Positions 17,268 through 43,608 of a stretch of 64,000 nt of DNA are shown here, one piece after another. A model generated the notes under the pieces. That model was not told the origin of the DNA, did not search any database, and saw only the letters and a list, made by a program, of their open reading frames with translations. The position numbers and the translations under genes were made by a program. Every line of letters begins with the position of its first letter. Position 1 is the stretch's first letter. The stretch is from Spongilla lacustris (lineage: Eukaryota > Porifera > Demospongiae > Spongillida > Spongillidae). The stretch spans positions 4,717,609-4,781,608 of the forward strand of contig OX442418.1 in NCBI GenBank assembly GCA_949361645.1. The letters are read 5' to 3'.

Positions 17268-17642
17268 TATCCGATTATGCGAATTTGCGTACGCGTAAGA
17301 ACTTACAGTAGCGGCTCGCACATTGCGACAATTTGCATATCCCACATTGCGAAAATATGCCCCATTCATAGTGATGTTAGGCTAGGTGTTTGTGTTCCTA
17401 GCGATCCCTACGACCCACCGCTAATGAGATTCACGCGGTGATGGAATCTCATTAGAAGGTGGTTTATGTCAACTGTACCCCTCCCAGCAGTTATTAACCC
17501 GGATACTGCATGAAAATGCGCCTTACCTTCACGTACACGTACGTACCCTTTGGCTCGAAAGAAAACAAAATTACCTGCGCGCCCTTATACATAAAGACTG
17601 GCTCTAGATGAGCAGCTGACGACAGATTGGCAGGTTGCAACA

Positions 17643-18083
17643 AGCAGTAGTAATAAGGGGGTGTAACTCCGAGTTGACGATAGGAGCCCCCGCCGGTCAA
17701 TCAGACTCGATTAACATGTTCGATGAGACCCTTCAACTCTTTTTTACCGTTAGAGGCTTCTATCTATAACTCGCTAAAATGGGACACCGCCGGCACCCAA
17801 TTTATAGATATAGGCTCGATCCGATCCTGCAAGCCCTTGTAACTAGTTCGAATAGATTCTTCGGGACGTGACACTGATTAGAGGCTTCTATCTATAACTC
17901 GATATACCGAAATGTGCTTGAGAAGCGTAAATATATTTTTTAATACTTCGATTGATATGTGAAAAATTGAGTAGCATTTTTTACGCTTAAAAGACTACTA
18001 GGAGCTTTCTAGGATGTGCATACTAGTTACCGGAGAGAAAACCCCCTGAGAAAACCCCCTGATAAAACCCCCTGAGAAAACTA
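17643..18083 (+). repeat. Left terminal inverted repeat of the virus (441 bp)
   Basis: Inverted copy of 43163-43603. It contains two direct 24-bp repeats (17750-17773 and 17878-17901, core GAGGCTTCTATCTATAACTC) and, at its inner edge, a 13-bp tandem repeat GAGAAAACCCCCT (18035-18083, nearly four units). In this virus class the TIR end is where the integrase cuts and where protein-primed replication starts. Confidence 0.95.
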
Positions 18084-18160
18084 TCAAATAACCTATTGCA
18101 AACATTTTGTAGTACTCGATTAATAGCTTTTGAGGATAGTTGGTTAATAATGGTCTGCTG

Positions 18161-18214
18161 CCGGCGGGGGCTCCTATGTACAACTCGAAGTTACACCCCC
18201 TTATTACTACTGCT
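18161..18214 (-). repeat. Extra inverted copy of the viral terminus inside the left end
   Basis: Matches the last 54 bp of the element (43550-43603) with four mismatches, in the orientation of a right end. It lies 78 bp inside the left TIR and is followed by the HU-like gene. Together with 17643 it would bound a 572-bp unit with inverted ends. Confidence 0.8.
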
Positions 18215-18254
18215 TGACATTTTATAGATTGTAAAATTATAAAATCGCTACAAA

Positions 18255-18563
18255 TCATATCATATCCTTAAGGCGTTTTAGTGCTTTAGCTTTTATAACC
18301 TCTTTAGATGGATGTGCTTTAAATGTTGTTGCTTCACCTGTAAAAGGATTTATACCGGGTCGTTCTGAAGTTGCTTTCTTAGTTTTAACTACGATCTTAA
18401 TTAAGTCAAATAGTGTTACATGCTTATGAGATTTTATTTCGCTTTCTATGATTCCAGTAGTTGCTGTGAATACATCTTTAACTTGCTTGCGTGTTAATCC
18501 TGTTTTAGTTGCAATCTCACTAATCATTTGGGTTTTAGTTAAACCCTTCGCGTGTTGTGACAT
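18255..18563 (-). CDS. HU/IHF-like DNA-binding protein
   Basis: This 102-residue protein starts at the ATG at 18563; the open frame extends upstream only through tandem repeats. It has the bacterial HU/IHF fold signature. Residues 7-45 fit the helical dimerisation part (LTKTQMISEIATKTGLTRKQ resembles the MTKxELIxxIAxKTGLSKK start). Residues 66-80 carry RPGINPFTGE, equivalent to the RxGRNPxTGE arm that inserts into the DNA minor groove. It ends with a PSKEVIKAKALKRLKD helix, like the FKxGKxLKDxV end of HU. HU proteins bend and compact DNA. Among eukaryotic viruses a well-known example is the HU-like protein of African swine fever virus; it is unusual here. A role in genome compaction or in replication/integration complexes is inferred. 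It is divergent from the polymerase gene across a repeat-bearing regulatory region. Confidence 0.85.
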   Translation of the reverse strand: MSQHAKGLTKTQMISEIATKTGLTRKQVKDVFTATTGIIESEIKSHKHVTLFDLIKIVVKTKKATSERPGINPFTGEATTFKAHPSKEVIKAKALKRLKDMI

Positions 18564-19043
18564 AATAAGAAAAATATTATTAAAACTCAAAATAGCGATG
18601 CATTTAATCTGGACACCGGTGAGATCCCAGCGCCGACAAGCAATTTTGGAGTAACACGATAGAAGGCTTTGCGAAAATTGATAAAAACTGGACACCAGTG
18701 AGATCCCAGCGTCGACAAACAATTTTGGAGTAACACGATAGAAGGCTTCGCGAAAATTGATAAAAACTGGACACCAGTGAGATCCCAGCGTCGACAAGCA
18801 ATTTTGGAGTAACACGATAGAAGGCTTTGCAGAAAATTGATAAAAACTGGACATCAGTGAGATTCCAGCGCCAACAAGCAATTTTGGAGTAACACGATAG
18901 AAGGCTTTTATAATGAAATAGCAGGGTATAGATAGTATGTATATTTTTTAAGGCTTTATAGGGCATGAGCTTGCAGCCAATGTGCGGACAATTTTTATTT
19001 GAAGAATTCTTGAGTAGTATATATTATATCTGAAGCTGGAGCA
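18564..19043. promoter_or_regulatory. Intergenic control region between HU-like and PolB genes
   Basis: A 480-bp gap between divergent genes. It holds four tandem copies (starts 18609, 18688, 18767, 18847; the last is short) of a 79-bp unit containing CAATTTTGGAGTAACACGAT. An AT-rich TATATATTATATC box lies 15-30 bp before the PolB start. A promoter, enhancer or origin role is inferred from position. Confidence 0.5.
18609..18907. repeat. 79-bp tandem repeat, 3.8 copies
   Basis: Copies begin CTGGACACCxGTGAGATCCC and end GATAAAAA. Periods are 79, 79 and 80 bp with a few substitutions per copy. The translated open frame across it in continuation of the HU-like gene has no start of its own and is an artefact. 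Confidence 0.9.
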
Positions 19044-22000
19044 ATGCTCACCGTAAACGAACACATTCAGAAGCTCAAGAACCTGGCTGCAAATGGCAAG
19101 ATCCCTAGCGATCTTCGTCAAGTATTATTAAACGAGATAAGTGATTTGGAAATGGTTATTCAAAAACCAGTAGTTGATCACCCATTGCCGCAATTTAATA
19201 AAAAGCAGCCTAAAAAGCGAGACATTATGGATGTTTATTTAGTTGGTAAGGATAAGCAAAATGTGAGGCAGCAAAAGAAAACTGAGAAGTTACATTATAA
19301 GAATCTTAAAAGGGAAACAATTAAAAATAATGGTATAGATTTCAAACTGACAAAAGATCATAATTTGTTTGCAAGATACTCTATAAACTTTAAACATTTT
19401 AATAATACTTTTAGGTACGCTCATAATGATACAATGGAATATATTAAGCCTAAGTTGAACACCCTGGTGGAGAAAAAGATAGAAGATTTTAAATCTCTTA
19501 AGGTCAACGTAACTTTGACTGCTACTTTTATTAAAAAATCGTTTGGGGAAATGATGGTTGATGGTGTTAAAGTAGAGCTGAAGGAAGACGTAAAAGTGGC
19601 ATATCTCAGAACAAAGACGCAGGTTTGTATAAATAAAGATGATATTAAATATGCAGTTGATGAATGTATAAGCGAGTTGTTAGAAAAGATTGATGAATTT
19701 ACAAATTTGGGTAGTAACTGGGTATTTAAGCATGCAGATCGTATTGATGTAGGAATAACTAAATACAAACCAATGAGAGGTGGAAGTTATATAAAGACTC
19801 CTGATTATGTGCCTCGTAGATGTGTCATAAATGTAGATAATGATGATGAAGAATGTTTTAAATGGTCAATATTGGCATCGCAATTTCCACCTGAGACACA
19901 TCCTGAAAGAGTTAATCAATATAAACAGTATGAACATAAATTTAATTTTAGTGGAATTAGTTACCCAGTACAGATAAAAGATATTAAAAAGTTTGAAGCT
20001 CAAAATCCAACATTATCAGTAAATGTGTTTGGTTGTTATGCTGATATTATCTTTGGAAAAGAAAAATTTGAAATTTATCCTATATATATTTCAGAAAAAT
20101 ATAATGGAATTGAAAATGATAAAATGATAGATCTTTTATTAATAGAAGGTAGACATTATGTATGGATTAAGAATTTCGCTGGAATTTGCTTCAGATTGAC
20201 GAAGCATAATGCTAAGAAATTTCCATGCAGAAGATGTCTCCATATATGTTATACTGCAGAAAAGTTGCAAAGCCATATAAAAGAATGCCGAGGCATTTCA
20301 AAGGCACCGGCAAGAGTTAAACTTCCAAACCCAAATACATTTTGCCAATTTTATGAATATGGTATGTGTATGAAAGTTCCATTAACGATTCATGCAGATT
20401 TTGAATAATATAATAAAACTATTAATAAGCAATGTGGTGACCGAACAGTACAAATTGGGGAACAAGATGCAAATTCTTATTGTTATACCATGGTCTGGAG
20501 AGATGGCAGAAGAGAAGGTCCGTTTCTATATAGAGGTGATTCTCCGGTACCACATTTTCTACAAGAATTAAAGAAATTATCGTTTCGAGTAAATAAAATC
20601 TTTGCTGATATAAAACCAATAATAATGACTGCAGAACAAAGTATAACTCATAAGGAAGCAACGCATTGCTATTTATGTTCTGATAAATTTATTGATAAAA
20701 ATAAGAAATGTGCTCATCATGATCATTTGAATGGTTTATATGAGGGTCCTGCTTGTAATAATTGTAATCTGAAAATGAGAATTGTTCCATTTGAAACAAA
20801 GATACCTGTCATATTTCACAATCTCCGAGGATATGATTCTCATCTATTATTGTCAGAAATTGGTAAAGTAACTGATAATCTAACTGATATAAGCTGCATC
20901 CCAAATAATATGGAAAAATACATGTCATTTTATATGGGTCAATTTCAGTTCATAGATTCTTATCAATTTATGCAAGAGTCTCTAGATAATTTAGCTAAAA
21001 ATCTCTCTGATGATGAGATGGTACACACAAAAGATTATTTTATGAAAAAGTATAATGAGGAAATGTATACCCTTATGAGGAGAAAAGGTATATATCCCTA
21101 TGAATGGGTTAATAATAAGGAGAAGTTTGATAGCACTGAGTTGCCTCCAAAGGAAGCATTTTATAGCAGGTTATCTAGAACAAATATAACAAATGCTGAT
21201 TATGAACATGCTAAAAATGTTTGGGAAAAATGCCATTGCAAAAACTTTGGCGATTACCACGATCTATATCTCATAACTGATGTAATGTTATTAACTGATG
21301 TCTTTGAGACTTTCAGAAATATGTCAATGAAAAATTATGGTATCGATCCGGCTTATAAATTTTCAACTGCCGGGCTATCTTGGTCAGCAATGTTAAAATC
21401 TACTCGGGTAAAATTGGAATTACTTTCTGATTATGATATGCATTTAATGTTTGAAAAGGGAATACGTGGCGGCATCTCAACTGTATGTGCTAAGAGATTG
21501 ATGGAATCTAATAACAAATATTGTAAGAATTTTGATCCCAAAAAGTTGACAAAATATTTAATGTATTTGGATGCTAATAACTTATATGGCTGGGCGATGA
21601 TGAGAAAGATGCCAGACGGCCAATTTAAATGGATTACTATGTCTTTGGATCAAGCAATAAAAAATATTAAGAAAACAGATTTTGATTCCGATTATGAATG
21701 TATTTATGAAGTAGATCTAGAATACCCTGGCGAGCTGCATGACTTGCATAATGACTATCCATTGGCTCCACAGCGAATGAAAGTTAAAAAAGATGAATAT
21801 AGCCCGTGGCAGCTTGAGATGGCAGAAAAGATTGGCAATAATTTAACAGAATATGAAAAGCTTATACCAAATCTTAGCGATAAGGAGCATTACGTTGTAC
21901 ACGGCCAAATTTTGAAACTATATCTAGAATTGGGAATGAAACTTACAAAGGTTCATAGAGCTATTCATTTCCACCAAACTGCATGGCTTAAACCTTATAT

Positions 22001-23000
22001 AGAACAAAATACAAATCTTAGAAAGAAATCAAAGTCAGATTTTGAAAAGAATTTCTTTAAACTTATGAATAATGCTATCTATGGGAAAACCATGGAGAAC
22101 GTGCGAGGAAGAGTTAATGTGGAATTGGTGCATGCTAATAATAATGAAAGAATGCAAAAATTGTTAAATAGTCCAAACTTTGATTATATGAAAACGTTTG
22201 ATAATGACTTAGTTGCAATGCATATGTTTAAGACTACGGTGCATTTAGTTAAGCCAATTTATGTAGGAATGGCAATCCTAGATCTCTCAAAGTATTTGAT
22301 GTATAACTTTTGGTATAATCATATTAAGAAAAATTATGGAAATAAAGCCCAACTTTTATATACCGATACTGATTCTTTTATATACGAAGTAGAAACCGAA
22401 GATATTTATTCTGATATGAAAAAGAATGAAACATATTATGATTTTAGCGAATATCCTAAGAATCATCCTTGTTATAACCCAATAAACGCTAAGGTGCCGG
22501 GATTGTTTAAGGACGAGTCGTGTGGCAGACCAATGTCAGCTTTTGCTGGAATAATGTCAAAAATGTATGCATTTACCCGGGATCCTTTTGAGGACGAGGA
22601 AGTTAAAATAATTAATGATAAAGAGGTTTATGTTAAGAAAGATATAAATGTTGAAACTATGAGTGAAAAAGATTTAAAGGGATTGTCTAGCGATGCTGCT
22701 AGGAAGCACACCGTCAAGAAGATTAAGGGCGTAGGAACGGTTGTTGTAAATATGGATGTTGGTTACGAAATGTATAAAGATTGCATTTTGAATGGCACAG
22801 AATACAGCTTTTCTCAAACCGTTCTTAGAAGTAAAAGTCATAAAATTGGTGTATACGAACAAACTAAAAAGGCATTATCTCCGTTAGATACAAAGAGATA
22901 CATACTCGACAATGGTATTGACACCCTGGCTTTTGGTCATTATAAAATTAAAGAAGCTGCATTGCAAGCTGTGGACGATTTCTTCCAAAATTTCGATTAA
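19044..23000 (+). pseudogene. pPolB: Protein-primed family B DNA polymerase with one in-frame stop
   Basis: One reading frame of 1318 codons, broken only by TAA at 20406-20408 (codon 455). The stop comes directly after the DFE of the first exonuclease motif, and both sides keep the same frame and continue the homology. Upstream parts resemble the N-terminal region of Maverick polymerases, including the RGGSYIKTP segment and a Cys-rich CRRCLHIC finger. Downstream are an FHNLRGYDSHLL segment, Exo III DYHDLYLITDV (codon ~737), motif A YLDANNLYGW (~841), motif B MNNAIYGKT (~1005) and motif C YTDTDS (~1107). The enzyme would replicate the linear genome from a terminal protein. The stop could be a real nonsense mutation, a sequencing error or, less likely, read through. 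A shorter polymerase from ATG 20490 would lack Exo I. Confidence 0.9.
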
Positions 23001-23068: not shown

Positions 23069-23908
23069 ATGGCGCATCAACAACAAATAAATGTGATGGC
23101 TGACATTTTGCATCCCGCTCAATTGCCTAAAAAATCTGTGGAGCCTTGGGTAAAAGTATTTTGCGAGCAACATTTGGAAGCACTAAAAAATATTAATTTG
23201 GCAGTAAATTTCGTGGCGCCATATATAGATGAGGCAACTAATGAACAATTGGCGAATAATATTAAATGTCGAAGATGTAATAAATATTGCCCAGAGGTAA
23301 TGTATGCTAACCTTAAACACGGTGAAGGTAAAAAATCTATATGTTGCATTTGCAGCAGCGATGACTGTATATTACCTGAAATTGTAACAGGAATAAAAAA
23401 TATGACTCGCCGAATTCTCCTAAGAAAAAATGTTTATACCAATAGACTTACTAAATATACTTGTGAGTTATGTAAAATAACATTGACAAATTCTGCTAAA
23501 GGTTCTCATGAGGTTAGTAAACAACATACTGATAATATAAAACTTAAGCAAGAAAGGGAAGAACGAAATATGTCTCACGAAGAAACGGTTGATCAATATG
23601 AAGATCAACTTTATAAATTACAATCAGATATTGCAGTACTTGAGGAACAAGTTACAGATTTTGAAGATAAAATTACAGAATTTGAAGATAAAGTTGTAGA
23701 ACTTGAAGATAATAACGCAGATCTTAAGAAACAAGTAAAAGAAGTTGAACAAAAAGTTGTAGAACGTGATGATAAAATTTATATGCTTGAAACAGAACTT
23801 GATAGAGCACAAAATGAAGCTGATAACTTTCGTAGCAAATACGAACAACTTTTGGCACAAACGAATAAGCCTAAGGTAACAAGGCCTTATTATAGACGCT
23901 ATAAATAA
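23069..23908 (+). CDS. Zinc-finger and coiled-coil protein, unknown function
   Basis: 279 residues from ATG 23069; the codon before it is GTG, so the ATG is preferred. A Cys cluster (C67, C70, C74, then C92, C93, C95, C100) suggests one treble-clef or RING-like zinc site. A second finger, C132-x2-C135-x11-H147-x5-H153, is of the U1/matrin type. Residues about 160-265 are a long Glu/Lys-rich coiled coil with heptad-like VxDFEDKITEFEDK repeats, and the C-terminus is basic (RPYYRRYK). It follows the polymerase by 68 bp on the same strand. A nucleic-acid-binding scaffold is a guess; I recognise no family. Confidence 0.75.
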   Translation: MAHQQQINVMADILHPAQLPKKSVEPWVKVFCEQHLEALKNINLAVNFVAPYIDEATNEQLANNIKCRRCNKYCPEVMYANLKHGEGKKSICCICSSDDCILPEIVTGIKNMTRRILLRKNVYTNRLTKYTCELCKITLTNSAKGSHEVSKQHTDNIKLKQEREERNMSHEETVDQYEDQLYKLQSDIAVLEEQVTDFEDKITEFEDKVVELEDNNADLKKQVKEVEQKVVERDDKIYMLETELDRAQNEADNFRSKYEQLLAQTNKPKVTRPYYRRYK

Positions 23909-26089: not shown

Positions 26090-26593
26090 ATGATAAGCAC
26101 AAGAATGACCGAAATATACGAAGATAATTACGACGGTTGCAGTAAAACTCAAGTGCTCGACTCGCAAGGCATTTCTAGGACAGTTTTTATTCCAATGCAT
26201 CTAGAAAAGTTATATATGGATGCTAAAAAAGATTCTGATAATTATAACGATCATACGCCAAGATGCCCGGCTTGTACTGGTTACCTTAAAATGAGTGTTA
26301 GACCAAGAATTACTAGAAATGAGGTAAAAAAGATGTCATATAGAGTATATGATCGTGTTATAAAATGCGAGAAATGCCTGAAAGCTTATATTAAAGAGAC
26401 TAGAATTTATTATATTGTCAATTATTCCAAAGCCGAAATCCAACGAGCAAAAAGCTTGGGCATGCGATACGATGGTTATGTAAAATGCTGGTATATATTT
26501 AAAAGCAGCCCTATAAATAATCTAAAGCTAGCAGCAATACATTTTGATGAAATAGATTATAGATCGTTGCTAGGCGACGGTTCAATGCTATGA
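26090..26593 (+). CDS. Zinc-ribbon protein with DUF5710-like C-terminal module
   Basis: 167 residues. Two CxxC pairs (C59/C62 and C93/C96) form a probable zinc ribbon. Residues 107-137 read YYIVNYSKAEIQRAKSLGMRYDG and then KCWYIF. This fits the DUF5710 pattern (Y.nVpys...eAK.lGA.wD...k.WYi), a small module often attached to primases and other DNA-handling proteins. A DNA-processing role is therefore plausible but unproven. The gene is followed by a G-rich palindrome at its 3' end, shared with the convergent gene. Confidence 0.7.
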   Translation: MISTRMTEIYEDNYDGCSKTQVLDSQGISRTVFIPMHLEKLYMDAKKDSDNYNDHTPRCPACTGYLKMSVRPRITRNEVKKMSYRVYDRVIKCEKCLKAYIKETRIYYIVNYSKAEIQRAKSLGMRYDGYVKCWYIFKSSPINNLKLAAIHFDEIDYRSLLGDGSML

Positions 26594-26641: not shown

Positions 26642-26658
26642 AGGGGGGTTTCCCCCCT
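26642..26658. terminator. Perfect hairpin between convergent genes
   Basis: Stem AGGGGGG / CCCCCCT around a TTT loop, preceded by another GGGGGG run. It lies at the convergent 3' ends of the genes at 26090-26593 and 26658-27158. A similar G/C-run arrangement follows the gene ending at 29846. Confidence 0.5.
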
Positions 26659-27158
26659 CATATGAGGTCAGAGGTTATACAGCCTGTACTAATAATAGCA
26701 AGAGTTTTTATTAATGTAGTTATATCATGTGAAGATGCCCCATAAAATGATAATGCGGTGCCTCCAGCTATTGGAATATAATGAGTGCTAAAATCTAGAG
26801 GGGCGTTAGATAGGCCATAGCTTAGGCCTAAATTTTTTTTGTAATATAATTCGCGAACTGCATTAGTTACACCGCCCGCAGAACCAAATAAAAATGGATC
26901 TTCTCCCAAGCTATAAGCCATTGCCCCAGAAACTATAGAAGCCAGGCCAATTTTTAGATAAACTGTTTTATCATTATCAAATTCTGGATTTACAAAATTT
27001 GGATTTACATTTACTACATTACTATTTGATAAATTAGGACTAACTGTTATAGTAGTATCGATTTTGGGTTGAACAATATTTGTATTCGGTGCCGTGACTG
27101 TTGCAGTGCTGCGGCTATTAGTCGTTGGCGAAGACGTTGATGACGATTGGTTACCCAT
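26658..27158 (-). CDS. Probable N-myristoylated membrane protein (virion-associated?)
   Basis: 166 residues starting MGNQSSST. Gly2 with Ser6 fits the N-myristoylation consensus. Residues 5-60 are Ser/Thr/Asn-rich and low complexity. From about residue 70 there are three or four Gly/Ala/Ser-rich hydrophobic helices, ending in a STGCITSDLI-like segment. Spacing and small motifs (hydrophobic pair, a TALSFYG-like segment, a terminal helix ending in xxSDx) resemble the genes at 27247 and 28771, suggesting paralogues. Myristoylated hydrophobic proteins in large DNA viruses are often inner-membrane or entry/fusion components; that is inference. Confidence 0.65.
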   Translation of the reverse strand: MGNQSSSTSSPTTNSRSTATVTAPNTNIVQPKIDTTITVSPNLSNSNVVNVNPNFVNPEFDNDKTVYLKIGLASIVSGAMAYSLGEDPFLFGSAGGVTNAVRELYYKKNLGLSYGLSNAPLDFSTHYIPIAGGTALSFYGASSHDITTLIKTLAIISTGCITSDLI

Positions 27159-27246: not shown

Positions 27247-27699
27247 TTATATATCGGAGGTTGATTTATATTCCATGCTGCTAAGTTGGCTAGAGATAGC
27301 TGCTGATGCAGAGCTTGCAACGTCGAAGAACTTGCTGGATACAAAAAAAGGGTCTACAAATTTTAATACTATATCTGAGGCCACTCCATACATGGCCCCT
27401 CTCAGGAATTCGGATTTTAGATCGCCGGCCTGTTCAGATGCTGATGCAACACCCGCGAAAACGGCCCCGGCAGTAGCGGCACCAACTGCATATGATTTAT
27501 AACTCATAGGATTCGCAGCCATTCCAGTGGCAATATCGAGTTTAGGTAAAAGTAACGTTTTTCCATAGTAATCTCCCATACCAGCCAGAGCTGCCGTAAC
27601 CAATCCTGCATAAGTATAATTATAACCCGAATAATAATCAAAACCGTAGCAAATAGCACTAGCTACGACTCCTTGTTTAACTGCTTGCATTAGCGACAT
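27247..27699 (-). CDS. Small Gly/Ala-rich hydrophobic protein (paralogue family)
   Basis: 150 residues without the Ser/Thr tail of its neighbours. Hydrophobic helices lie at about 5-20, 30-45, 70-88 and 102-118. An AGLVTAALAGMGDYYGK segment aligns with AGISGISYLVGDQVANY of the protein at 28771, and the terminal YGVASDIV aligns with AAGIAADYL. It is therefore one of three related membrane or capsid-interior proteins. It diverges from the ATPase gene with a 97-bp gap. Confidence 0.65.
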   Translation of the reverse strand: MSLMQAVKQGVVASAICYGFDYYSGYNYTYAGLVTAALAGMGDYYGKTLLLPKLDIATGMAANPMSYKSYAVGAATAGAVFAGVASASEQAGDLKSEFLRGAMYGVASDIVLKFVDPFFVSSKFFDVASSASAAISSQLSSMEYKSTSDI

Positions 27700-32900: not shown

Positions 32901-33271
32901 GCAGTACACTTAATTGGTATGAAGAATATCAAATGACTGGAAGATGGATTATAAATTCTGTATCCTTTCCATGTGGATATTGCTTTATAAGAATAGGTAA
33001 AATGGTAAGTATATTTGGAGAAAACGTTACAGCTTCTATTCCCTCTGCAATTAATTTCAGTCAAAATTATTCAACAACTATACCATCGCAGTTTAGGCCA
33101 TCTAACGTAGTTATAGCTAATTATAATACACATCAAATATCAATTCAAACAAATGGTTCATTCGAATTAAAAATAGTTGCCACAGGAGCATTATCAGTTC
33201 GTTTTGCCCAAACTATAACTTATTCTCTATTAGCATTTTCTGGAGGTTTTAATACAGATACAATTGCTTAA
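29996..33271 (+). CDS. Large repetitive fibre-like protein (putative receptor-binding fibre)
   Basis: 1091 residues, very rich in Asn, Thr, Ser, Ile and Gly, almost without Cys or charged residues until the end. It is built of short beta-type repeats (GTGTINLNS, NLTINSPGGTINTN, SGALSLASNG), as in trimeric phage tail fibres and beta-helix spikes. A ~79-bp segment recurs at about 31222, 32242 and 32572. A module of about 85 residues (AIAVKxxMTFD...LTVDN) occurs twice, from ~30397 and ~31855. The last ~120 residues (from about 32915) are non-repetitive with aromatic residues and Cys and end in YSLLAFSGGFN, a likely knob. A fibre for host attachment is inferred from architecture. The start is preceded by CCCTAAT. 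Confidence 0.75.
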   Translation: MTLRGNAGRLVQGVNNLSGFVSLTEGPGIEIIPNNARNSLQFGTVTAMLEFDDILANGDTTARSAKFLNNASDTIPALIVHNTLDFGSGGSSGALPGVTLKYSPGTPDGLVIGPTTGTNKKILRTDIIGANTSTAIAVKSGMTFDTGLTLIVDNLVAQTVSTNGDIAASRLLPIDTSGLTINLDTCTMSCADSVANPSINIQTELNCTRGITAAAGMTLTGELNLNSTIITPSLIVPIDLTLKPSGDVRVFNGKTLFCDTISQSNTSINFTITALGTNRNININPSGTGRTYFGGSGIMVGYISSTFGRDITIQPDAGAINLLTNVNAANITATNIVTATNINLNITPGGTGSTNINSAVAIRDSLTVDTIRSRTTNGNLILAANGTGTINLNSAVIGTNITTNVLTSPAATNLSINSPGGVINTNATNITASGALSLASNGALNLQALTGNSSVNISGTGTGTINLNSPAIGTTITATTFTSPANTNLNLNAPGGSILSNALNWSATGVLGINSGGTMTLWPTNNQCIIDATLTVNRSIIGSRFVGTEFVSNVLNTGIALSPNGTGQVNVLAGKTLTADTISSTTANTNLILTPNGTGTQVQIASGKTLATDIINTNTAAAIAVKNNMTFDATKTLTVDNIISKSISNNGNIVASKLIKYIGDGLTIDLDNSTITCSDITLPILIEPHVQIDGILTCTSNAIIFNGLATTTLTPYGSTGLTINLNNSTLSSAVPINIGSIVANTITSAAATNLTINSPGGTINTNATNITASGALSLASNGNLNLQASTGNSSINISASGSGVVNMSSPLLVNSIIPYNSADLTLAASGINGNINLTATGTGTIKCNFPLTASTITSPAATNLTINSPGGTINTNATNITASGAIALNSTNARLTLNACTNNVYVSSPATFNDSIACSSFSNGVNNNIIMTPLTGTITLSTNNANNININPGGLTSFGGSGINLPNGGSTLNWYEEYQMTGRWIINSVSFPCGYCFIRIGKMVSIFGENVTASIPSAINFSQNYSTTIPSQFRPSNVVIANYNTHQISIQTNGSFELKIVATGALSVRFAQTITYSLLAFSGGFNTDTIA

Positions 33272-33354: not shown

Positions 33355-34017
33355 ATGCCGAAACATAACGACGTTGGATCAAAGGCTCCAGAAGTTAATG
33401 AACTTACATCAAAATCTAGTGGACTTTTAAGCCCTAGTAGTTTAGCTCTTGCAGCCCCCCAGGCAGCTACTGGCATCTTTAAAGAAAAAATCTGGAATTC
33501 TAATGGTAATTTAGTAGAATATTTTGGTGTAAGACAACCATTATATATTACTGATGAACTAGCAGAAGTACTTTATATACAATGGACAGGCTATGTTAAA
33601 AGTGGTAATGTGCCAAATGCAGGTGATATGAAAGCTGATGGTAGTGGATATGGTGATTATAAGTTAGATGCTGATGTAACTGAAACAGAAGTAGTATCAC
33701 AAATAAAATCTGCTAACCAATTATCAAAACGTGAATTGACAACCGATGATTTACTATATTCTATGTCTAGAACAAAAAGTGGTAGACTTGCAATGATGGC
33801 CTTTCGCGACTCTTCTGATATCTTTATCACAAGTGGTGGAACAAATCCTATATATGTAAATTCATATTATCTGAAAGTAAATGGAATAGGCGATATTGTC
33901 TCAGGTGCTGGTGGTGGAGGATATGTAATCGATAAGGCTGTTACATCAAAATCAGAGGGTATTACTAAAAATATGGCTGCTGCAGCTACTCTGAGTCTTC
34001 GAACTAGAAGAACATAA
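33355..34017 (+). CDS. Unknown viral protein, possible virion component (220 aa)
   Basis: Ser/Ala-rich first 40 residues, then a mixed alpha/beta region with aromatic strands (LVEYFGVRQPLYITDELAEV), an SNQ/KR helix region, a Gly-rich segment (GAGGGGY) and a basic SLRTRRT end. No Cys, no membrane helix. It sits between the fibre-like gene and the next large gene on the same strand, with 83- and 27-bp gaps, so it may be in the same late transcription group. Not recognised. Confidence 0.65.
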   Translation: MPKHNDVGSKAPEVNELTSKSSGLLSPSSLALAAPQAATGIFKEKIWNSNGNLVEYFGVRQPLYITDELAEVLYIQWTGYVKSGNVPNAGDMKADGSGYGDYKLDADVTETEVVSQIKSANQLSKRELTTDDLLYSMSRTKSGRLAMMAFRDSSDIFITSGGTNPIYVNSYYLKVNGIGDIVSGAGGGGYVIDKAVTSKSEGITKNMAAAATLSLRTRRT

Positions 34018-34044: not shown

Positions 34045-35763
34045 ATGAGTAAAGTGAGAGTAACTTTCACAGAGAAATTTTTTATAGAGGATCATACTAT
34101 TACATATCATGGTGTGCTGATTCCGCTATATGGATTGTTAAACGAATTTATCGATATATACTATATTGACATAGTATCTGATGATGTTAAATTATATTAT
34201 GAACGAAAAAATAAAAATGGCTTATCTATTGAGCAAAAATTGAGGCTTATAGCAGAAACTGATAGAGGTAGACTAATTATTAAGGAATTTTCAGAATTTG
34301 GCACAAATGCATCTTTTGCCGAAACTAAGCGACAATTTGTTCCGGATTGGTATATTAACCCTAACGGTCCCATTTCGAGCCTAACAAATGGCAATCATTC
34401 ATATAGTGAATATTATTATTTACCGTTAAGTTCTGAGGAAAGATGGAAACGATACGTAGGAACATTGCCACCATCAGTTCCATTATTTGTATCATTATTT
34501 CAAAAAACTTCTAACGTAATAGCAAGAATTATTTCTAGAAGCTCTCCCAGGCCAACCTCTAGAGATTCTACCCCAAGAAGGAGTCCTACCCCAGATAGAG
34601 GCTCTTTAGCAACTGATGGAAGCCTAACAGTAGATGCTGGAGAAATAAGTTCTCCCTTAAGAACTGTAGATACGGATTATGAGACTGCAGATGACATGAC
34701 ACCAATTGCTTCACCTATAGCTCTGCATCCTTTTGATTCAGGGCCTCCCCAATCAGAATCAGAGATTTTAATAACAGAAGAAGTTTTAAAAGATTGGCCT
34801 GAAGATCCTAAGCCAGATCCCGATGGAGATCCCGATGGAGATTTCCCTCCAAATCCCGATGGAGATTTCCCTCCCTCCTATGATGATTCTAAAAAAGATA
34901 TATTAATAGCATTTGGTCCAACTGACGTAGAAATAAATAGTGAATATGCTGATATAAATAAAGGCGCTATTAAAGCACTTCTAACAACTCCATCAACTAT
35001 AATTAATTTTATGCAAAATGCCCTAAATATTCAATATCTAAAGACAGATGATGAAGTTAAAAGACTAATAGACGAACCAAATTTCAGAAAATTCTTACCC
35101 AAAAATTTCAATGATTCAGAAGATATGGGTGTCATAAGATCACAAGCAGTTAAGGCATATACTAGACTTGTTGTATCTATGGGTTATACTTATGCTAATT
35201 TAAGAAATCTTAAAGAATATTTAACTGTGCAATTTAAATATTTTAACCCATTATCAGCAGAAGCTATAAAAACACAAGTTAAAGAATTTAGCAATAAACC
35301 GCCGGATTTTAGTTCAATAAAATATAAATTAACACCAAAAGAAATTGAAAAGCAAAAAGAGTTAGTTATAAAAGAACTTAATGATGAAGAAGAACAAATA
35401 AAAGGCATAGAAGATGCTAATAAAATATTAACTCAATCTGTTGACCCAGCTAAAACATATGCTACAAAATTTCTAAAAATATTTGATTTGGGCCAAGAAA
35501 TTAAACTTTCAAATTGCCCTCAGTTAATATCTCCTGAAAGGTTAGGCGTATTATTAAAACTATTTTCTAAAGGTAATGTATCAGAAATTAAAAAACTTTG
35601 TGATGTATATGACATATCTGTTCCAAGTGGTATATCATTAAGACGAGATATAGGTGAACATATAAAAACTAAACTTAGTAAAATGAATTTAAAAGGTTCT
35701 AAATATTTAATAGCAAGTTTCAATATTGGCACTAGCGGTGGATGGGGTCGTTTTATAAAATGA
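34045..35763 (+). CDS. Large unknown viral protein with Asp/Pro/Gly repeats (572 aa)
   Basis: The N-terminal 110 residues are globular and begin much like the middle of the preceding protein (ITYHGVLIPLYGLLNEFIDI compares with YFGVRQPLYITDELAEVLYI, and both have SGRL or RGRL further on). Residues 165-250 are Ser/Pro/Arg-rich and probably disordered. Residues 258-280 are a DPDGDPDGDFPPNPDGDFPP repeat. The C-terminal half is helical and charged. Residues ~515-555 (EIKKLCDVYDISVPSGISLR) resemble a SAP DNA-binding module, with low certainty. Shared N-terminal features with the upstream gene suggest an old tandem duplication. Function unknown; perhaps a virion core protein. Confidence 0.65.
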   Translation: MSKVRVTFTEKFFIEDHTITYHGVLIPLYGLLNEFIDIYYIDIVSDDVKLYYERKNKNGLSIEQKLRLIAETDRGRLIIKEFSEFGTNASFAETKRQFVPDWYINPNGPISSLTNGNHSYSEYYYLPLSSEERWKRYVGTLPPSVPLFVSLFQKTSNVIARIISRSSPRPTSRDSTPRRSPTPDRGSLATDGSLTVDAGEISSPLRTVDTDYETADDMTPIASPIALHPFDSGPPQSESEILITEEVLKDWPEDPKPDPDGDPDGDFPPNPDGDFPPSYDDSKKDILIAFGPTDVEINSEYADINKGAIKALLTTPSTIINFMQNALNIQYLKTDDEVKRLIDEPNFRKFLPKNFNDSEDMGVIRSQAVKAYTRLVVSMGYTYANLRNLKEYLTVQFKYFNPLSAEAIKTQVKEFSNKPPDFSSIKYKLTPKEIEKQKELVIKELNDEEEQIKGIEDANKILTQSVDPAKTYATKFLKIFDLGQEIKLSNCPQLISPERLGVLLKLFSKGNVSEIKKLCDVYDISVPSGISLRRDIGEHIKTKLSKMNLKGSKYLIASFNIGTSGGWGRFIK

Positions 35764-35885: not shown

Positions 35886-35910
35886 GAACGTCTGTGCTAC
35901 GCAGATGTTC
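35886..35910. terminator. Near-perfect hairpin at the 3' end of the major capsid gene
   Basis: GAACGTCTG / CAGATGTTC arms (one G-T mismatch) around a 7-base centre. It ends at the first base of the capsid stop codon as read on the plus strand. Confidence 0.45.
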
Positions 35911-37565
35911 TAAAGAACATCGCCTTGAAGTGCCGGTGGGGCGTCAATATATCTAACTTTAGTAGTTCTATCTGGGAAAATTATAAGATTTGCAAACTTC
36001 GGAAACAGGATGTATGCCTGGTACTGAGTATTTGGTATCAATCCTGCACCAACTGAGCCTCCATTATCAACAACTTTTGGAAACAATGCTCCTGCCGCAC
36101 GCAGAGAATTAGTCAGCACTCCCCATCTAGCACCCTGAACAGTTGTATCATAATCATTTAGCCTAGTCATAGTAATTGTAAGTCCTGCCAAAGAATTGAC
36201 ATTTGTGCTACCTACTGTTATTAGGGCGCTACCATAAACATCCATATTATCTACAATATTTTGAACTGTTGCCTGAGAATCATTCCAATTAATTTGTGCA
36301 CTAGTATAAGTATAACCGAGACCATCGCAATAATGAATCTGAAAAGAGCCTCCTGTAGCTACAACCGCGGCTCCTGTGGCATCAATTGTTGTAATTGTTA
36401 TAACTCTTGGCACTTCTGCGATATATGGCCCAGGAATAATTTGTAAAATTTCGTTATTAATAGCCTTTCTCCATCCAGCTCCCATTATACCATTCATTGA
36501 TGCTATCCTATTTTTTGTGAAATCCATGAAATATAGTCCCTGCCATGCCCCGCTCAATAGTTTGCTATAAGAACTCTCCGCAGCAAACTGAATCTGCAAA
36601 TAAGGATCAATACTCTGTGCAGTATATGGGGTGCCTGAAGGATCGCAGAGAGCCACTTTTGCCTGACTAACTGCAGAAGCCAATTTAGCAAATCGCTTGC
36701 ATGCTCCGTATGCCGGTGTCAAATCAGATATCAATTGCAAGCCATAAACTAAGAACGGTGAAACTCCCTCTACACCAGTTAGCGTGATATTAATTGGGAC
36801 GCCAGTTTGTGCATTTGTAATAATTTGAGGGGTAAGTATCTGCCAATCTAGAAATATTCTTTCATTAGGTATTCTATAGCTATTAAGCAGGCTATATGCC
36901 TTGGCCTGGGGAACCAGAGATTCTTCGAGAATAAGTTGAGCTGAAATCAGAGAAACATTTGCGGCCAGACCCTGCTCGATGCAGCCGTTAAATGGTGAAA
37001 TAATATTCATATTCATGTTTTTGGGATATGCCTTGAGTAAAGCGTTTGTAAATAGGCAATTATCATAAAGTGGAACATAAACTTGATAATTTCCAACGGG
37101 AGTAAAAGCTGTGGTCCATGCGTCATCGGGGTCGACCAACATAGACTGTGCCATGACCCTGAATTGTTCCGGTAGCAAGTTGTCATAAGACATCAATAGA
37201 TTGGTCCAATTAGTTTCCTGACCTCTGGCATTGGTAGAATCTTGAAAGGCTTGAATCTTATAAAACCACATAAATGCAGGAAGAAGTCTAACCGGGGCAT
37301 TACTTATTTGAATGTTAAAATTCACCCAAACTCTTGATATTTGACCAGAATCTCCAGGAATAACAAAATTAATGGTACTTTGTTGGGTTAAATACGTTGG
37401 ACATGTGGTTTGCATAGCGATAGGAGTATACTTCTTTTGATTTCTACCTGCCTTAAAACCAACAACTTGGTCCGTTAGCTGTGCTACGGGTCCACTAACA
37501 TAGGGATCCAATAGACCGGTAACTTTATTATAATGATCGACAAGATGAACTCTTGATGCTGCCAT
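35910..37565 (-). CDS. MCP: Major capsid protein, probable double jelly-roll type
   Basis: 551 residues. It is identified from features typical of Polinton/virophage-like capsid proteins: a beta-strand-rich body, an early strand NFVIPGDSGQISRVWVNFNI, a middle helix-rich turret region, and a conserved-looking C-terminal QAYILFPKFANLIIF strand. It also lies head-to-head with the penton-like gene. Residues about 385-475 (from VPRVITITTID to GLTITMTR) look inserted. They carry a FQIHYCDG strand, NDSQATVQNIV and ALITVGSTNV, like the Ig-like decoration module common in phage head and tail proteins. The protein would form the hexameric shell of an icosahedral virion. The start ATG follows TTTCTAAT. 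No sequence search could be run, so the fold call rests on pattern and context. Confidence 0.75.
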   Translation of the reverse strand: MAASRVHLVDHYNKVTGLLDPYVSGPVAQLTDQVVGFKAGRNQKKYTPIAMQTTCPTYLTQQSTINFVIPGDSGQISRVWVNFNIQISNAPVRLLPAFMWFYKIQAFQDSTNARGQETNWTNLLMSYDNLLPEQFRVMAQSMLVDPDDAWTTAFTPVGNYQVYVPLYDNCLFTNALLKAYPKNMNMNIISPFNGCIEQGLAANVSLISAQLILEESLVPQAKAYSLLNSYRIPNERIFLDWQILTPQIITNAQTGVPINITLTGVEGVSPFLVYGLQLISDLTPAYGACKRFAKLASAVSQAKVALCDPSGTPYTAQSIDPYLQIQFAAESSYSKLLSGAWQGLYFMDFTKNRIASMNGIMGAGWRKAINNEILQIIPGPYIAEVPRVITITTIDATGAAVVATGGSFQIHYCDGLGYTYTSAQINWNDSQATVQNIVDNMDVYGSALITVGSTNVNSLAGLTITMTRLNDYDTTVQGARWGVLTNSLRAAGALFPKVVDNGGSVGAGLIPNTQYQAYILFPKFANLIIFPDRTTKVRYIDAPPALQGDVL

Positions 37566-37611: not shown

Positions 37612-38367
37612 ATGAGCCTAGAAAAATACGTATTCGTGCTCGATACTTCCGGTAAACAAAGTGGTACCCCCAATACAGGATCAGTTTATTCTACTTTTAA
37701 TTTAATCCCAACAACCGAGCCATTTTACATGAAACTTACCATGTTTAATATGGTATTTGCAGCTCCCAATATTTCTCCATCGAAAGGTAATACAATCCAA
37801 TGCGATGACGGAACAAATATTATAACAGTTGTTTTACCTACTGGGGCATATGGGGTTGGCAGCACAAATGATTTAGGTAATACGGTTGCTGCATTATTGA
37901 CAGCCGCAGATGCCGGTTTGGCAGCAATAATTTTTACATCAACTTACGACGATGCAACAAATTTATACACCCTTTCTGGCACTCGACCATTTAAATTAAT
38001 ATTTAACACAAATAGCATAAAAAATCAATATGGCTTCGAAGGCACCTCTCCAATGGCCACTTCTCAAACGGCTACAAAGTATCCAAATTTATATGATAAT
38101 TACTTTCAGGTACAAATATATGCCGATAATGCAACAACTCAATACGTTAAAATCCCATCGAAAACAGGAGTGACACAATGTAGTTTTGTGGTACCGAGAC
38201 GAGTTGACTTTGGTGGTCAGCTATCTTTGACACAATCAGATATAACACCGCAATATATGAGATTTAATCGCTGTCCCACCCAAATTTCCTGGAATCTTAC
38301 ACGCCCCAACGGGCAGCCCTTAGAGCAACAACTGGATTGGACGGCAGTATTTGCAATAGAAAAATAA
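37612..38367 (+). CDS. Minor capsid protein, penton-like single jelly-roll
   Basis: 251 residues with the layout of Polinton/virophage penton proteins. An N-terminal strand region (YSTFNLIPTTEPFYMKLTMF) is followed by NTIQCDDGTNIITVVLPTGAYG, the usual 'lp.G.Y' step before a helix. Next come LYTLSGTRPFKLIFN and QYGFEG, matching the common 'f.l.f...lGF' part, and a C-terminal region of beta strands. Pentons occupy the five-fold vertices. It is divergent from the MCP gene (46 bp) and abuts the convergent gene at 38368 with no gap. Confidence 0.75.
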   Translation: MSLEKYVFVLDTSGKQSGTPNTGSVYSTFNLIPTTEPFYMKLTMFNMVFAAPNISPSKGNTIQCDDGTNIITVVLPTGAYGVGSTNDLGNTVAALLTAADAGLAAIIFTSTYDDATNLYTLSGTRPFKLIFNTNSIKNQYGFEGTSPMATSQTATKYPNLYDNYFQVQIYADNATTQYVKIPSKTGVTQCSFVVPRRVDFGGQLSLTQSDITPQYMRFNRCPTQISWNLTRPNGQPLEQQLDWTAVFAIEK

Positions 38368-39141
38368 TTATTTTTCAGTAGATTGTAGAGATTCTATACC
38401 TAAAGCTACAGGCAATGGTTGTGGCGGCGTCTCAGTAGGTAGCTGCGGTGGCTGCTGTTCTAATTTAGGCTCGTGAACTTTTTTCATTTTATTATGCGTA
38501 TATACAGCACTCATCGACCCAGCATAAATAAGCATAAATTGTATATAGGAAGGTATTTTTTTACTTCCTGTAAAACCAGAATCTATAAGCGTCATTACTA
38601 AAGCTTTTCGGCAACTCACCTTTGCAACATCACTAAATCCTGTAACGTCATAACCAAATGAAATCAGCATATTTTCTATCAATGGATTTACATTATTTAA
38701 AATAATATCAGCCTGTTTCGGGGGACTAGTTATATCTTCGCCAACACTAGCTTTCAATTCCTGTTCTATAGCTTGCAACTTTCCCAATTTAGCACCATCA
38801 GACAAAACCTTATCAACTTTTTCTTTTAATTTTTTACTGAATACTACACCATCTGTTTCAAAAACAGAATAAGATTCCCGCCATCTCCTAAGCCTTCCCA
38901 TCAATAACATTTCTTCCTTGTCGTCATTGCTTTCTGCAGCAGCTTTTCTATTTTCTGCCTCAGATTTAGCTATTGCGCGTACAAATGCTGCATCGTGATG
39001 TTGGACCATCCTAGGCTGTTGCTGCTGAGGCTTTTCCTCTTCTTTTTCTGATTCAGACGACGACTCTGACTCATTTTCAAATAAAATGCTATTTACACCG
39101 CTATCTGGTGGTATGATTTGGTCAATACTTTTGTAATCCAT
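38368..39141 (-). CDS. Unknown protein with acidic/Gln-rich N-terminus (257 aa)
   Basis: Residues 20-45 are Ser/Glu-rich and then Gln-rich, probably disordered. Residues 55-140 are helical and charged. Residues 150-215 contain an apparently globular domain (LIENMLISFGYDVTGFSDVA) ending in a hydrophobic helix YIQFMLIYAGSMSAVY. The last 40 residues are Pro/Gln-rich. Its stop adjoins the penton stop directly. Position among capsid genes suggests a virion or assembly role; family not recognised. Confidence 0.65.
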   Translation of the reverse strand: MDYKSIDQIIPPDSGVNSILFENESESSSESEKEEEKPQQQQPRMVQHHDAAFVRAIAKSEAENRKAAAESNDDKEEMLLMGRLRRWRESYSVFETDGVVFSKKLKEKVDKVLSDGAKLGKLQAIEQELKASVGEDITSPPKQADIILNNVNPLIENMLISFGYDVTGFSDVAKVSCRKALVMTLIDSGFTGSKKIPSYIQFMLIYAGSMSAVYTHNKMKKVHEPKLEQQPPQLPTETPPQPLPVALGIESLQSTEK

Positions 39142-39998: not shown

Positions 39999-40045
39999 TA
40001 TAGTCAATTAAACGATAAATATTTTATAAGTATTGGCCGTAAAAA

Positions 40046-40324
40046 ATGAGCGCGGAAGCTACTGCTAGAAAATATGCTGAAAATTTGGAGACTTATCTGT
40101 TGCAAAAATCTAAAAACCTAGGTACAGAGATATTAGACTTAATATCGAATCTTAAGACAACACCCTGGGAAAATATATATTCTAAAACAATGATATATCG
40201 AATACTATCAGATGAAGAAAGACTAAGTACAATAAAATCCAAACTTTCTTTTCTCACAGACGCCGAATGCTATTTAGTTAAGCAACACATAGATTATATT
40301 ATTTTATTAGCTGAGCATCCCTAA
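40046..40324 (+). CDS. Small helical protein (92 aa), unknown
   Basis: Predicted almost wholly alpha-helical (LETYLLQKSKNLGTEILDLI and similar), no Cys cluster or membrane helix. Its stop overlaps the stop of the convergent gene at 40321. Not recognised. Confidence 0.55.
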   Translation: MSAEATARKYAENLETYLLQKSKNLGTEILDLISNLKTTPWENIYSKTMIYRILSDEERLSTIKSKLSFLTDAECYLVKQHIDYIILLAEHP

Positions 40325-40719: not shown

Positions 40720-40754
40720 TTCAAGTAATATAAGATCTTGTTCATATATTTAAC

Positions 40755-41744
40755 ATGGAAAAATTACAAGAAATATACTACTCAAAAAATGGCTACTGGC
40801 ATGGACAAAAAGCAATAGATATCCTATGTGAGAAATCAGGGCTTTCTAAGCATGATGTTACCCACTGGCTAAAACGTCAACCCATATGGCAGATATACTT
40901 ACCAGGGCCTAAATACATCCCCAGGCCAAAGATAGAAGAAGTAATTCCTAACGGCGTTCATCAAACAGACATATTATATTTGCCTCACGATACAGTTGGT
41001 AGGAAAACTTATAAATACTGTTTATGCGTTATAGACGTAGCTAGCAGATATAAAGATGCAGAGCCGTTACTTGATAAAACTGCCGCCCAAACGACAGCGG
41101 CTATAGAAAAGATATATAAGCGAGGGCCATTAAAATTTCCAAACTTAATACAAGTTGACGCCGGGAAAGAATTTTTGGGAACATTTGCTAAATTAATGGC
41201 AAAAAAGAAAGTTAAAGTAAGAACAGCTACGCCCGGTAATCACAGGCAGCAAGGCATAGTAGAAAGATTTAATAGAACTTTATCAGAAAGACTTTTCAAA
41301 TCTCAGTATCATGAAGAAATAAAAAATCCATCACAACGTAGCACAAAATGGGTAAAGGATCTGCCTGCGGTTATAGACGAGCTTAATAGCCGCGTAACAA
41401 GATTAACAGGTCATATCCCTCATGAGGCAATTCTAAGCCCTACAGTCGAATCTGATTCTAGCCTGCCATCTAAACGTGCAGTGGGGGACGAAAAAATTAT
41501 AAGCTCTACAGCTATAGTATGTTATCTATATTTGCCGGGCGAGCTAGAAGGTGGTCGTCGCCGAGCGACAGATCCGATATGGAGCCTCACCGCCCATAGG
41601 ATAGATAGCATTACTAAACGTGAGGGCTCTCCCAACGTATACAAGTTAACTAATGATATAAACAACGATCAACCCCCTCCCGCCCGTATATTTGTTAGAG
41701 AGGAATTACTATTGATACCGGAGGATACCGAATTTAATGCATAG
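40755..41744 (+). CDS. INT: rve-family integrase (Polinton/retroviral type)
   Basis: 329 residues. The N-terminal 60 include a helix-turn-helix-like segment. The RNase H-fold catalytic core has D72 (HQTDILYL), D135 (QVDAGKEFLG) and E170 (GIVERFNRTL). The last two are 35 positions apart, as in retroviral and Polinton integrases. The C-terminal part (DPIWSLTAHRIDSITKRE to REELLLIP) fits the small SH3-like domain. The enzyme joins element ends to host DNA, in agreement with the exact CAACA duplication. All three acidic residues are present, so the gene looks functional. Its end overlaps the convergent gene by 11 bp. Confidence 0.92.
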   Translation: MEKLQEIYYSKNGYWHGQKAIDILCEKSGLSKHDVTHWLKRQPIWQIYLPGPKYIPRPKIEEVIPNGVHQTDILYLPHDTVGRKTYKYCLCVIDVASRYKDAEPLLDKTAAQTTAAIEKIYKRGPLKFPNLIQVDAGKEFLGTFAKLMAKKKVKVRTATPGNHRQQGIVERFNRTLSERLFKSQYHEEIKNPSQRSTKWVKDLPAVIDELNSRVTRLTGHIPHEAILSPTVESDSSLPSKRAVGDEKIISSTAIVCYLYLPGELEGGRRRATDPIWSLTAHRIDSITKREGSPNVYKLTNDINNDQPPPARIFVREELLLIPEDTEFNA

Positions 41745-42198
41745 TTTTTATATAAAATGTTAATCCACTAGAAATTTTAGTTTCCTCCTTTCTATCATAT
41801 ATAATAGAATCTATTTCTGGGTAGTAATAGACGTCATGTTTAAATTTACCATTCATATAAATACAAAATATAAACGACATCTCAACATACTTTTCGAGTT
41901 GTGCTACATTTATCAGTAATTTACATTCGTCAAAGGCTCTAGAATCGCCCGCTGTATAAACAATTTCTGCTTTGAGATGTGTAGAATTTATAATTATTTT
42001 ATACTTTCTTCTAAAATCTGGACAGCAGTTACATTTTTTGCAATATGTGCCTACTTCTATGTAAAATATTTTTTCCTTTTCCGTTGGCAACTGGGGATCA
42101 AAAGCTAACACGGCGTCATATAAAGGCATTCTTATATTGACATACCTTTCACTACTTCTAATAGATCTCTTTGCATCCTTTTTATGTATTCTAAACAT
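41734..42198 (-). CDS. Cys-bearing unknown protein (154 aa)
   Basis: Contains a compact Cys group (YCKKCNCC, about 53-60) and later single Cys residues in beta-type sequence (KYKIIINSTHLKAEIVYTAG). It overlaps the upstream gene (42132-42485) by 67 bp in another frame and the integrase end by 11 bp. Basic N-terminus. Not recognised; no catalytic triad of a viral protease is visible. Confidence 0.55.
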   Translation of the reverse strand: MFRIHKKDAKRSIRSSERYVNIRMPLYDAVLAFDPQLPTEKEKIFYIEVGTYCKKCNCCPDFRRKYKIIINSTHLKAEIVYTAGDSRAFDECKLLINVAQLEKYVEMSFIFCIYMNGKFKHDVYYYPEIDSIIYDRKEETKISSGLTFYIKTMH

Positions 42199-42485
42199 TC
42201 TATTTGCATATGAAATAATATTCGTTTATCATCAAGTGATTGTGCGTTATTAAACCTTAAATTAAGATCGAACATTTCAATAATATGTTTTTGTAGTTCA
42301 ATCATACAACATCTCTCCTTTTTACGTTGTTCTTCCTCCATATGTTTTCTAAAATCCTGATATACTATTTTATTATGTTGCCTTATTTCTTCTTCTTCTT
42401 GGTTAATATTATCAAACTCTTCAATCAATTTCGTCATCTCTTCATCTTCATAATCTTCATAACTTAGTTGCCTCTCGTCTGCCAT
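42132..42485 (-). CDS. Acidic coiled-coil protein (117 aa), unknown
   Basis: The start is ATG 42485 (MADERQLSYEDYEDEEM); an upstream in-frame TTG is not needed. A TTTATATATA box lies just before. Highly acidic first 40 residues, then a charged helix (HMEEEQRKKERCCMIELQKH). It shares a 58-bp divergent gap with the gene at 42544. Not recognised. Confidence 0.55.
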   Translation of the reverse strand: MADERQLSYEDYEDEEMTKLIEEFDNINQEEEEIRQHNKIVYQDFRKHMEEEQRKKERCCMIELQKHIIEMFDLNLRFNNAQSLDDKRILFHMQIECLEYIKRMQRDLLEVVKGMSI

Positions 42486-42543
42486 TTCGGTATATATAAA
42501 AGCCAATAAATTTCTATTATAATTAAATATTTAGTAATATATA

Positions 42544-43149
42544 ATGGATAACTTCTACAATCTATCGAAATACATCGGTCTCAAACATATACAAAAATTC
42601 AGAATATGTCGATACTGGGCTAATGAAGTATATTTATCTCATAGGGGTAAATATGACTCGATAAATGATCCTTATCAACGACAAAGATATAATTGGCTAT
42701 ATCTCAAGAAATCATTATCTAACGCCAGCTATATTGAGGATGATAACAATATGTATTATAGCGATCGCAAGCTAAAAACAATTATAAAAGTTATTTACAT
42801 GACAGATATGCTTAAGGATAAAATATATAGAGTAACCCCTATAGGTATAACAGAAAATACATTTTATTTTATTAGAAGTATAAAATTTACAACGCGTACT
42901 CATGTTATTATTGTAGATACAGATAATATGTATAACATGTTTAAACTAGCAAATGTACTAATATCAAGTAATATAATAGATAAACTAAATAAATGTGGAT
43001 CTTTAAAAGCATTTAATGATCTTATGCGATCGATCAAAAACTGGAAATATAATAGTGATGAAGTAAATATGATAAATCGATGTAAATTTATATCGGTAAT
43101 AGAAGACACCAGGTGTCCTGATTATATATTTCGCCGAGACAGAGCTTAA
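42544..43149 (+). CDS. Basic unknown protein next to the right TIR (201 aa)
   Basis: Tyr-, Asn- and Lys-rich, mixed alpha/beta (LSKYIGLKHIQKFRICRYW at the start; a strand THVIIVDTDNMYNMF at ~119-133). It is the last gene before the right TIR, ending 13 bp before it. The C-terminus is CPDYIFRRDRA. A nuclease or terminal-protein role would fit the position, but no motif supports it. Confidence 0.55.
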   Translation: MDNFYNLSKYIGLKHIQKFRICRYWANEVYLSHRGKYDSINDPYQRQRYNWLYLKKSLSNASYIEDDNNMYYSDRKLKTIIKVIYMTDMLKDKIYRVTPIGITENTFYFIRSIKFTTRTHVIIVDTDNMYNMFKLANVLISSNIIDKLNKCGSLKAFNDLMRSIKNWKYNSDEVNMINRCKFISVIEDTRCPDYIFRRDRA

Positions 43150-43162
43150 TAGTTTTCTCATC

Positions 43163-43603
43163 TAGTTTTCTCAGGGGGTTTTATCAGGGGGTTTTCTCAG
43201 GGGGTTTTCTCTCCGGTAACCAGTATGCACATCCTAGAAAGCTCCTAGTAGTCTTTTAAGCGTAAAAAATGCTACTCAATTTTTCACATATCAATCGAAG
43301 TATTAAAAAATATATTTACGCTTCTCAAGCACATTTCGGTATATCGAGTTATAGATAGAAGCCTCTAATCAGTGTCACGTCCCGAAGAATCTATTCGAAC
43401 TAGTTACAAGGGCTTGCAGGATCGGATCGAGCCTATATCTATAAATTGGGTGCCGGCGGTGTCCCATTTTAGCGAGTTATAGATAGAAGCCTCTAACGGT
43501 AAAAAAGAGTTGAAGGGTCTCATCGAACATGTTAATCGAGTCTGATTGACCGGCGGGGGCTCCTATCGTCAACTCGGAGTTACACCCCCTTATTACTACT
43601 GCT
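43163..43603 (-). repeat. Right terminal inverted repeat of the virus (441 bp)
   Basis: Inverted copy of 17643-18083 with a single difference noticed (ACCAGTATG against ACTAGTATG). It ends in ACTACTGCT followed by the target duplication CAACA. Confidence 0.95.
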
Positions 43604-43608
43604 CAACA

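Follow-up and report, generated by a model that had tools for sequence, protein, structure and literature searches.

What kind of element interrupts a palindromic locus of the freshwater sponge Spongilla lacustris, and did it come there as a transposon or as a virus? The stretch analysed, hereafter the window, comprises 64,000 nucleotides of contig OX442418.1 (assembly GCA_949361645.1, positions 4,717,609 to 4,781,608), taken here to lie on S. lacustris chromosome 4, and it carries an inserted element of 25,961 bp (17643-43603). Most probably, this element is a recently integrated provirus of a Polinton-like double-stranded DNA virus lineage found in freshwater sponges. We favor this reading because of the exact ends, a 5-bp target-site duplication (TSD), matching empty sites, the gene set, the family of copies, and a low ratio of nonsynonymous to synonymous substitution rates (dN/dS) in the major capsid protein (MCP). 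The ends and the target, bounded by terminal inverted repeats (TIRs), are laid out as follows:

17638-17642, no strand: left TSD, CAACA (sequence inspection and flank alignment)
17643-18083, + strand: left TIR, 441 bp (440/441 to the right TIR)
18148-18216, - strand: inverted internal copy of the TIR end (89%; 93% over 54 bp)
43163-43603, - strand: right TIR (440/441 to the left TIR)
43604-43608, no strand: right TSD, CAACA (sequence inspection and flank alignment)
46804-46808, - strand: empty site, intact CAACA target in the other arm of the palindrome (flank alignments)
17304-47142, no strand: host palindrome centred near 45206 and split by the element, a multi-copy host repeat (alignment and genome search)

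An earlier sequence-only reading had described base-exact ends at 17638-43608, TIRs of 441 bp (AG...CT) and CAACA on both sides, all of which alignment bore out, its outer coordinates taking in both TSD copies and the two TIRs differing by 1 mismatch. The empty-site alignment that it had called for gave the same answer: the reverse complement of 46804-46808 holds a single CAACA, the left flank (17304-17642) matched the reverse complement of 46804-47142 at 99.7% over 339 bp, and a 300-bp query made of the left flank, a single CAACA and the right flank was 100% identical to 46953-46654. Within the host genome (51 contigs, 248,560,934 bases, labelled C1, C3, C4, C25 etc.), the same joined-flank query also matched, at 99.0-99.7%, each arm of the three further palindrome copies compared (L014, L015, L016). 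The palindrome at 43604-46808 is 98.8% identical to its own reverse complement, and its 43609-46800 portion has nearly full-length copies, at 92-100%, on several chromosomes. Chance does not account for a 441-bp inverted repeat that comes with a TSD and with empty sites matching in seven places. The same evidence bears on the notion of an assembly join, or of contamination from a virus whose host is an alga or protist in the sponge. While the GC content is 35.1% within the element versus 48.9% in the flanks, and the part of PMC12141999 consulted describes published S. lacustris work that also yielded an algal cobiont and a microbial metagenome, the insertion into a multi-copy host palindrome with a TSD and empty sites, the absence of N from the window, and the presence of relatives on many contigs, as well as on contigs of Mb scale that carry the name Ephydatia muelleri, make this explanation scarcely credible.

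The gene content is that of a Polinton-like element, with these principal genes:

19044-23000, + strand: family B DNA polymerase (PolB), a single frame with an in-frame stop at 20406-20408 (DNA_pol_B_2, 2.7e-16, C-terminal piece)
27797-28810, + strand: packaging-type ATPase with Walker motifs GPPGRGKS (A) and VILDDI (B) (Zot at 22.7 bits, against a cut-off of 20.3)
29996-33271, + strand: long repetitive protein, putatively fibre-like, N-terminus conserved and remainder variable (copy comparison)
34045-35763, + strand: fast-evolving open reading frame (ORF) between fibre and MCP (copy comparison)
35910-37565, - strand: MCP, probably double jelly-roll (DJR), with an Ig-like domain at residues ~384-504 (structure model and family searches)
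37612-38367, + strand: predicted penton (minor capsid) protein, from its position beside the MCP (model too poor for a fold test)
40755-41744, + strand: rve integrase, assigned by motif, D72 D135 E170 with 34 residues between D and E (rve, 2.2e-11)

The ORF listing held 39 ORFs of at least 60 amino acids, of which 25 were scanned for families as 26 window sequences (PolB in two pieces), the remainder being small or overlapping others; 25 listed frames cover ~86% of the element. The ATPase scored weakly overall, at 17.6 bits against Pox_A32 (cut-off 22.8). Judging by a weak model, the MCP probably has a DJR fold and carries an Ig domain like those of phages. Among the 26 scanned sequences, no protease family of adenovirus type came up at E<=1 (for one protein, among the best 25 of 55 matches), a result compatible with a diverged protease, and the sole protease name in the scan was Rhomboid (E 0.085, under its cut-off).

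The element belongs to a sizeable family. Matches to the MCP numbered at least 52 in at least 36 loci, fragments included, with a near full-length, stop-free frame in 17 loci (11 at 88-100% identity and 6 at 47-52%). PolB gave 67 matches in 33 loci and lay within 30 kb of the MCP in 21 of the 36 MCP loci; in five other copies with a whole, stop-free match, its open frames span 1261-1347 amino acids. The integrase gave 123 matches, and most of those under ~40% identity look like other rve elements. Gene order, gene for gene where matched, is common to a copy on C3 (L045), a copy on C1 (MCP 88%), a group-2 copy on C25 (50%) and a group-3 copy on C1 (46%), and the best group-2 match of the fibre-like protein spans residues 1-159 only. 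Lesions differ from copy to copy, with a stop in PolB in the window and a break in the integrase on C3.

The TSD was 5 bp in 5/5 copies for which both ends were located (four from one group and one from group 2, two lineages ~50% apart), and within-copy TIR pairs were 99.6-100% identical in three copies, with the pair of the C3 copy differing by 20 gap positions only. Among the 11 intact MCPs of one group (55 pairs, Nei-Gojobori), dS was 0.04-1.28, where values over 1 are near saturation, and dN/dS 0.021-0.178. Against its four closest copies, the window MCP showed a dN/dS of 0.02-0.03, and against the C3 copy its value of 0.028 was the lowest of 23 matched gene pieces, below PolB. Natural selection appears to have preserved the shell-protein genes of these insertions. 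Since near-identical TIR pairs accompany divergent MCPs at low dN/dS, we infer that divergence took place during replication with a functional capsid and that insertion followed, recently for most copies; lesions like the PolB stop presumably arose late.

These rates also weigh on the idea of a self-synthesising transposon, one that makes germline copies of itself and inserts them with capsid genes as passengers. An rve integrase, TIRs and a TSD would alone suffice for transposition, and dozens of loci lie in one genome, but passenger genes do not sit easily with an MCP more constrained than PolB. Entry proteins often evolve under looser constraint, as do the fibre-like and 34045 ORFs here (dN/dS 0.46-0.50 versus the C3 copy), but constraint is weaker still in several small ORFs (0.50-0.87). 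We therefore regard the transposon as unlikely. A host-retained defence element, akin to a mavirus-like provirophage kept against a larger virus, would likewise be multi-copy, recent and integrated, and the part of PMC12220804 consulted proposes such roles for Polinton-like viruses (PLVs) of protists. We consider this quite unlikely, as no virophage-type protease was recognised in the window family scans, and a larger virus partner was neither seen nor sought. For a provirus, the expected course would be that PolB copies the linear genome from its TIR ends, with protein priming assumed from the family, that the ATPase packages the DNA into an icosahedral capsid built from DJR MCP and pentons and bearing a receptor-binding fibre, and that the rve integrase inserts the genome into host DNA with a 5-bp stagger. 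Copies would then be drawn from a diverse replicating pool, as opposed to the decay of one old insertion.

Several points weigh against the provirus reading. The virus is known here from genome sequence alone. The sequence-only reading had listed mostly intact genes including PolB, integrase, packaging ATPase, a probable DJR capsid and penton; the integrase and ATPase stand, and the genes are intact overall, but PolB is interrupted by its stop, and the penton is predicted from its place beside the MCP alone. Its account is further amended in that the element is full-length yet PolB-interrupted, and one of dozens of loci. In the C3 copy the integrase frame is broken and one small ORF has a stop. 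Protein priming by PolB is presumed from DNA_pol_B_2 family membership. Confidence in the MCP model is low (mean pLDDT 47, pTM 0.34), with the second jelly roll barely probed, and meaningless structure matches can arise from low-confidence models. The TIR pair of the group-2 copy is only 91.8% alike, and therefore that insertion need not be recent; furthermore, TIR likeness could stem from gene conversion instead of recency. For the window copy, the recent insertion of a Polinton-like element, as first proposed, is supported by the exact ends, the TSD and the near-identical TIRs.

Where does the lineage sit among known relatives? PolB has at least 8000 of them; among the matches listed, and leaving aside three that the tree places in the element's own family, most were 42-49% identical and one was 52% identical over 77% of the query. 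A FastTree phylogeny of 75 PolBs (72 of 120 listed matches and three from the S. lacustris genome) grouped the window and group-2 PolBs in a clade of six, with support 0.83, that includes three unnamed database proteins. The phylogenetic check suggested at the outset covered PolB and the MCP, and the MCP tree holds only the element's own family, because no outside MCP was found. For the MCP, single-sequence and profile searches of 5.77 billion proteins, limited to shared words with 7999 candidates scored each time, found 16 relatives, none of them named Maverick and no protist MCP among them; the named ones are two Ephydatia muelleri proteins on Mb-scale contigs. Under midpoint rooting, a clade of seven database MCPs nested among the S. 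lacustris copies, and the lineages are therefore either older than these hosts or cross between them. A further-reaching proposal, namely a separate, still-circulating and virion-transmissible sponge virus family, with a DJR MCP bearing a phage-type Ig domain and an MCP lineage that belongs neither to Mavericks nor to adintoviruses or protist PLVs, we hold tentatively, with the balance tilted somewhat against it.

The remaining genes of the window element are:

18255-18563, - strand: HU/histone-like DNA-binding protein, accessory, start codon inferred (Bac_DNA_binding, 6.9e-17; 98 aa, 18255-18551)
23069-23908, + strand: zinc-finger/coiled-coil ORF (family matches under cut-off)
26090-26593, + strand: ORF detected in the C3, C1 (21.85 Mb) and group-3 copies, undetected in the group-2 copy (copy comparison)
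26658-27158, - strand: hydrophobic ORF rich in Gly, candidate for a minor virion protein (match in group 2)
27247-27699, - strand: hydrophobic ORF rich in Gly, candidate for a minor virion protein (matches in groups 2 and 3)
28771-29424, - strand: hydrophobic ORF, candidate for a minor virion protein (match in group 2)
29484-29846, + strand: hydrophobic ORF, candidate for a minor virion protein (matches in groups 2 and 3)
33355-34017, + strand: conserved ORF, no function assigned (copy comparison)
38368-39141, - strand: conserved ORF, no function assigned (copy comparison)
40046-40324, + strand: small conserved ORF (copy comparison)

The closest PDB relatives of the HU-like ORF are a viral histone-like protein (2.9e-12) and pA104R (3.5e-12), followed by bacterial HU (2e-4), and the protein may condense viral DNA in the members that carry its gene. 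In a survey of 53 loci, where some copy ends fell outside the sequence compared, the gene was found in 2, the window copy and one copy on C4 (6.19 Mb). It points outward in both, beside the PolB-side TIR in the window and beside the integrase-side TIR in the C4 copy (L054:524-820), as if ends had been exchanged. A 79-bp tandem repeat (3.8 copies, 18609-18908) adjoins the gene in the window.

Around the element, the host palindrome may itself be a fold-back mobile element. Two direct modules of ~6.4 kb each (10680-17059 and 47377-53756), with parts 83-97% alike, lie one on each side of the palindrome, and the host locus therefore looks like a larger tandem unit. An 18-bp minisatellite that is almost G-free on the + strand (GC skew near -1) occupies 7500-10676, 16047-17059 and 52663-53756, and a long array of a 27-bp minisatellite fills 59188-63939 on the right side of the window.

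If the provirus reading is right, a capsid-bearing, recently mobile Polinton-like lineage exists in an early-branching animal phylum, beyond standard Maverick features and in many copies, with exact ends and empty sites, and a sponge whose genome is public would offer a place for testing whether particles are still formed. Among the entries listed in the open-licence PMC literature, searched by title and abstract start and largely apart from subscription papers and preprints, we found no description of such elements in sponges. The word 'sponge' is absent from PMC11071296, PMC11071308, PMC8097293 and PMC10120064, and 'virus' from the S. lacustris genome paper (PMC12141999); Maverick, Polinton and virus are absent as terms from the E. 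muelleri paper, and a term search of PMC7385117 gave no match.

How, then, does the element compare with known systems? It resembles Mavericks/Polintons in its DNA_pol_B_2 polymerase, rve integrase, ATPase and MCP with a penton-like gene beside it, and in TIRs of a few hundred bp starting AG; the one group-2 element whose end was inspected starts AGTAGT, the commonest vertebrate Maverick end motif according to the part of PMC8097293 consulted. It differs in having a 5-bp instead of a 6-bp TSD (5/5 copies), no recognised Ulp1/adenovirus-type protease, an MCP without a match to any named Maverick MCP in the shared-word search, and copies of 26-27 kb as opposed to an average of 16.9 kb for intact vertebrate Mavericks (same part of PMC8097293). 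An adenovirus-type cysteine protease occurs in 74% of Polintons, and so is not universal (PMC4028283, as far as consulted). We rejected a standard Maverick because a 6-bp TSD (in the five copies with both ends located) and a recognised protease (in the 26 scanned sequences) were looked for and not found; the rve integrase was found. The sequence-only reading had anticipated this outcome, to which an MCP with 16 database relatives found also contributes. Compared with pA104R of African swine fever virus, one of the nearest relatives of known structure to the HU-like protein, the sponge gene differs in being accessory to its family, and the Ig-like domains of mycobacteriophage capsids (Bxb1, Patience) gave weak sequence matches only to that of the sponge MCP. 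Cnidarian MCPs outside the main Maverick cluster, likened here by description only (PMC10120064, in part), are similarly animal MCPs beyond the standard cluster. Protist PLVs, which the consulted part of PMC12220804 describes as 14-40 kb long with TIRs and sometimes 5-6 bp TSDs, differ in that the sponge element sits in an animal genome. Its size, TIRs, 5-bp TSD and accessory genes all fall within the range given there, and a packaging ATPase (of weak family score) was found together with an rve integrase. Overall, a new lineage of Polinton-like viruses is the best-supported class for the element.

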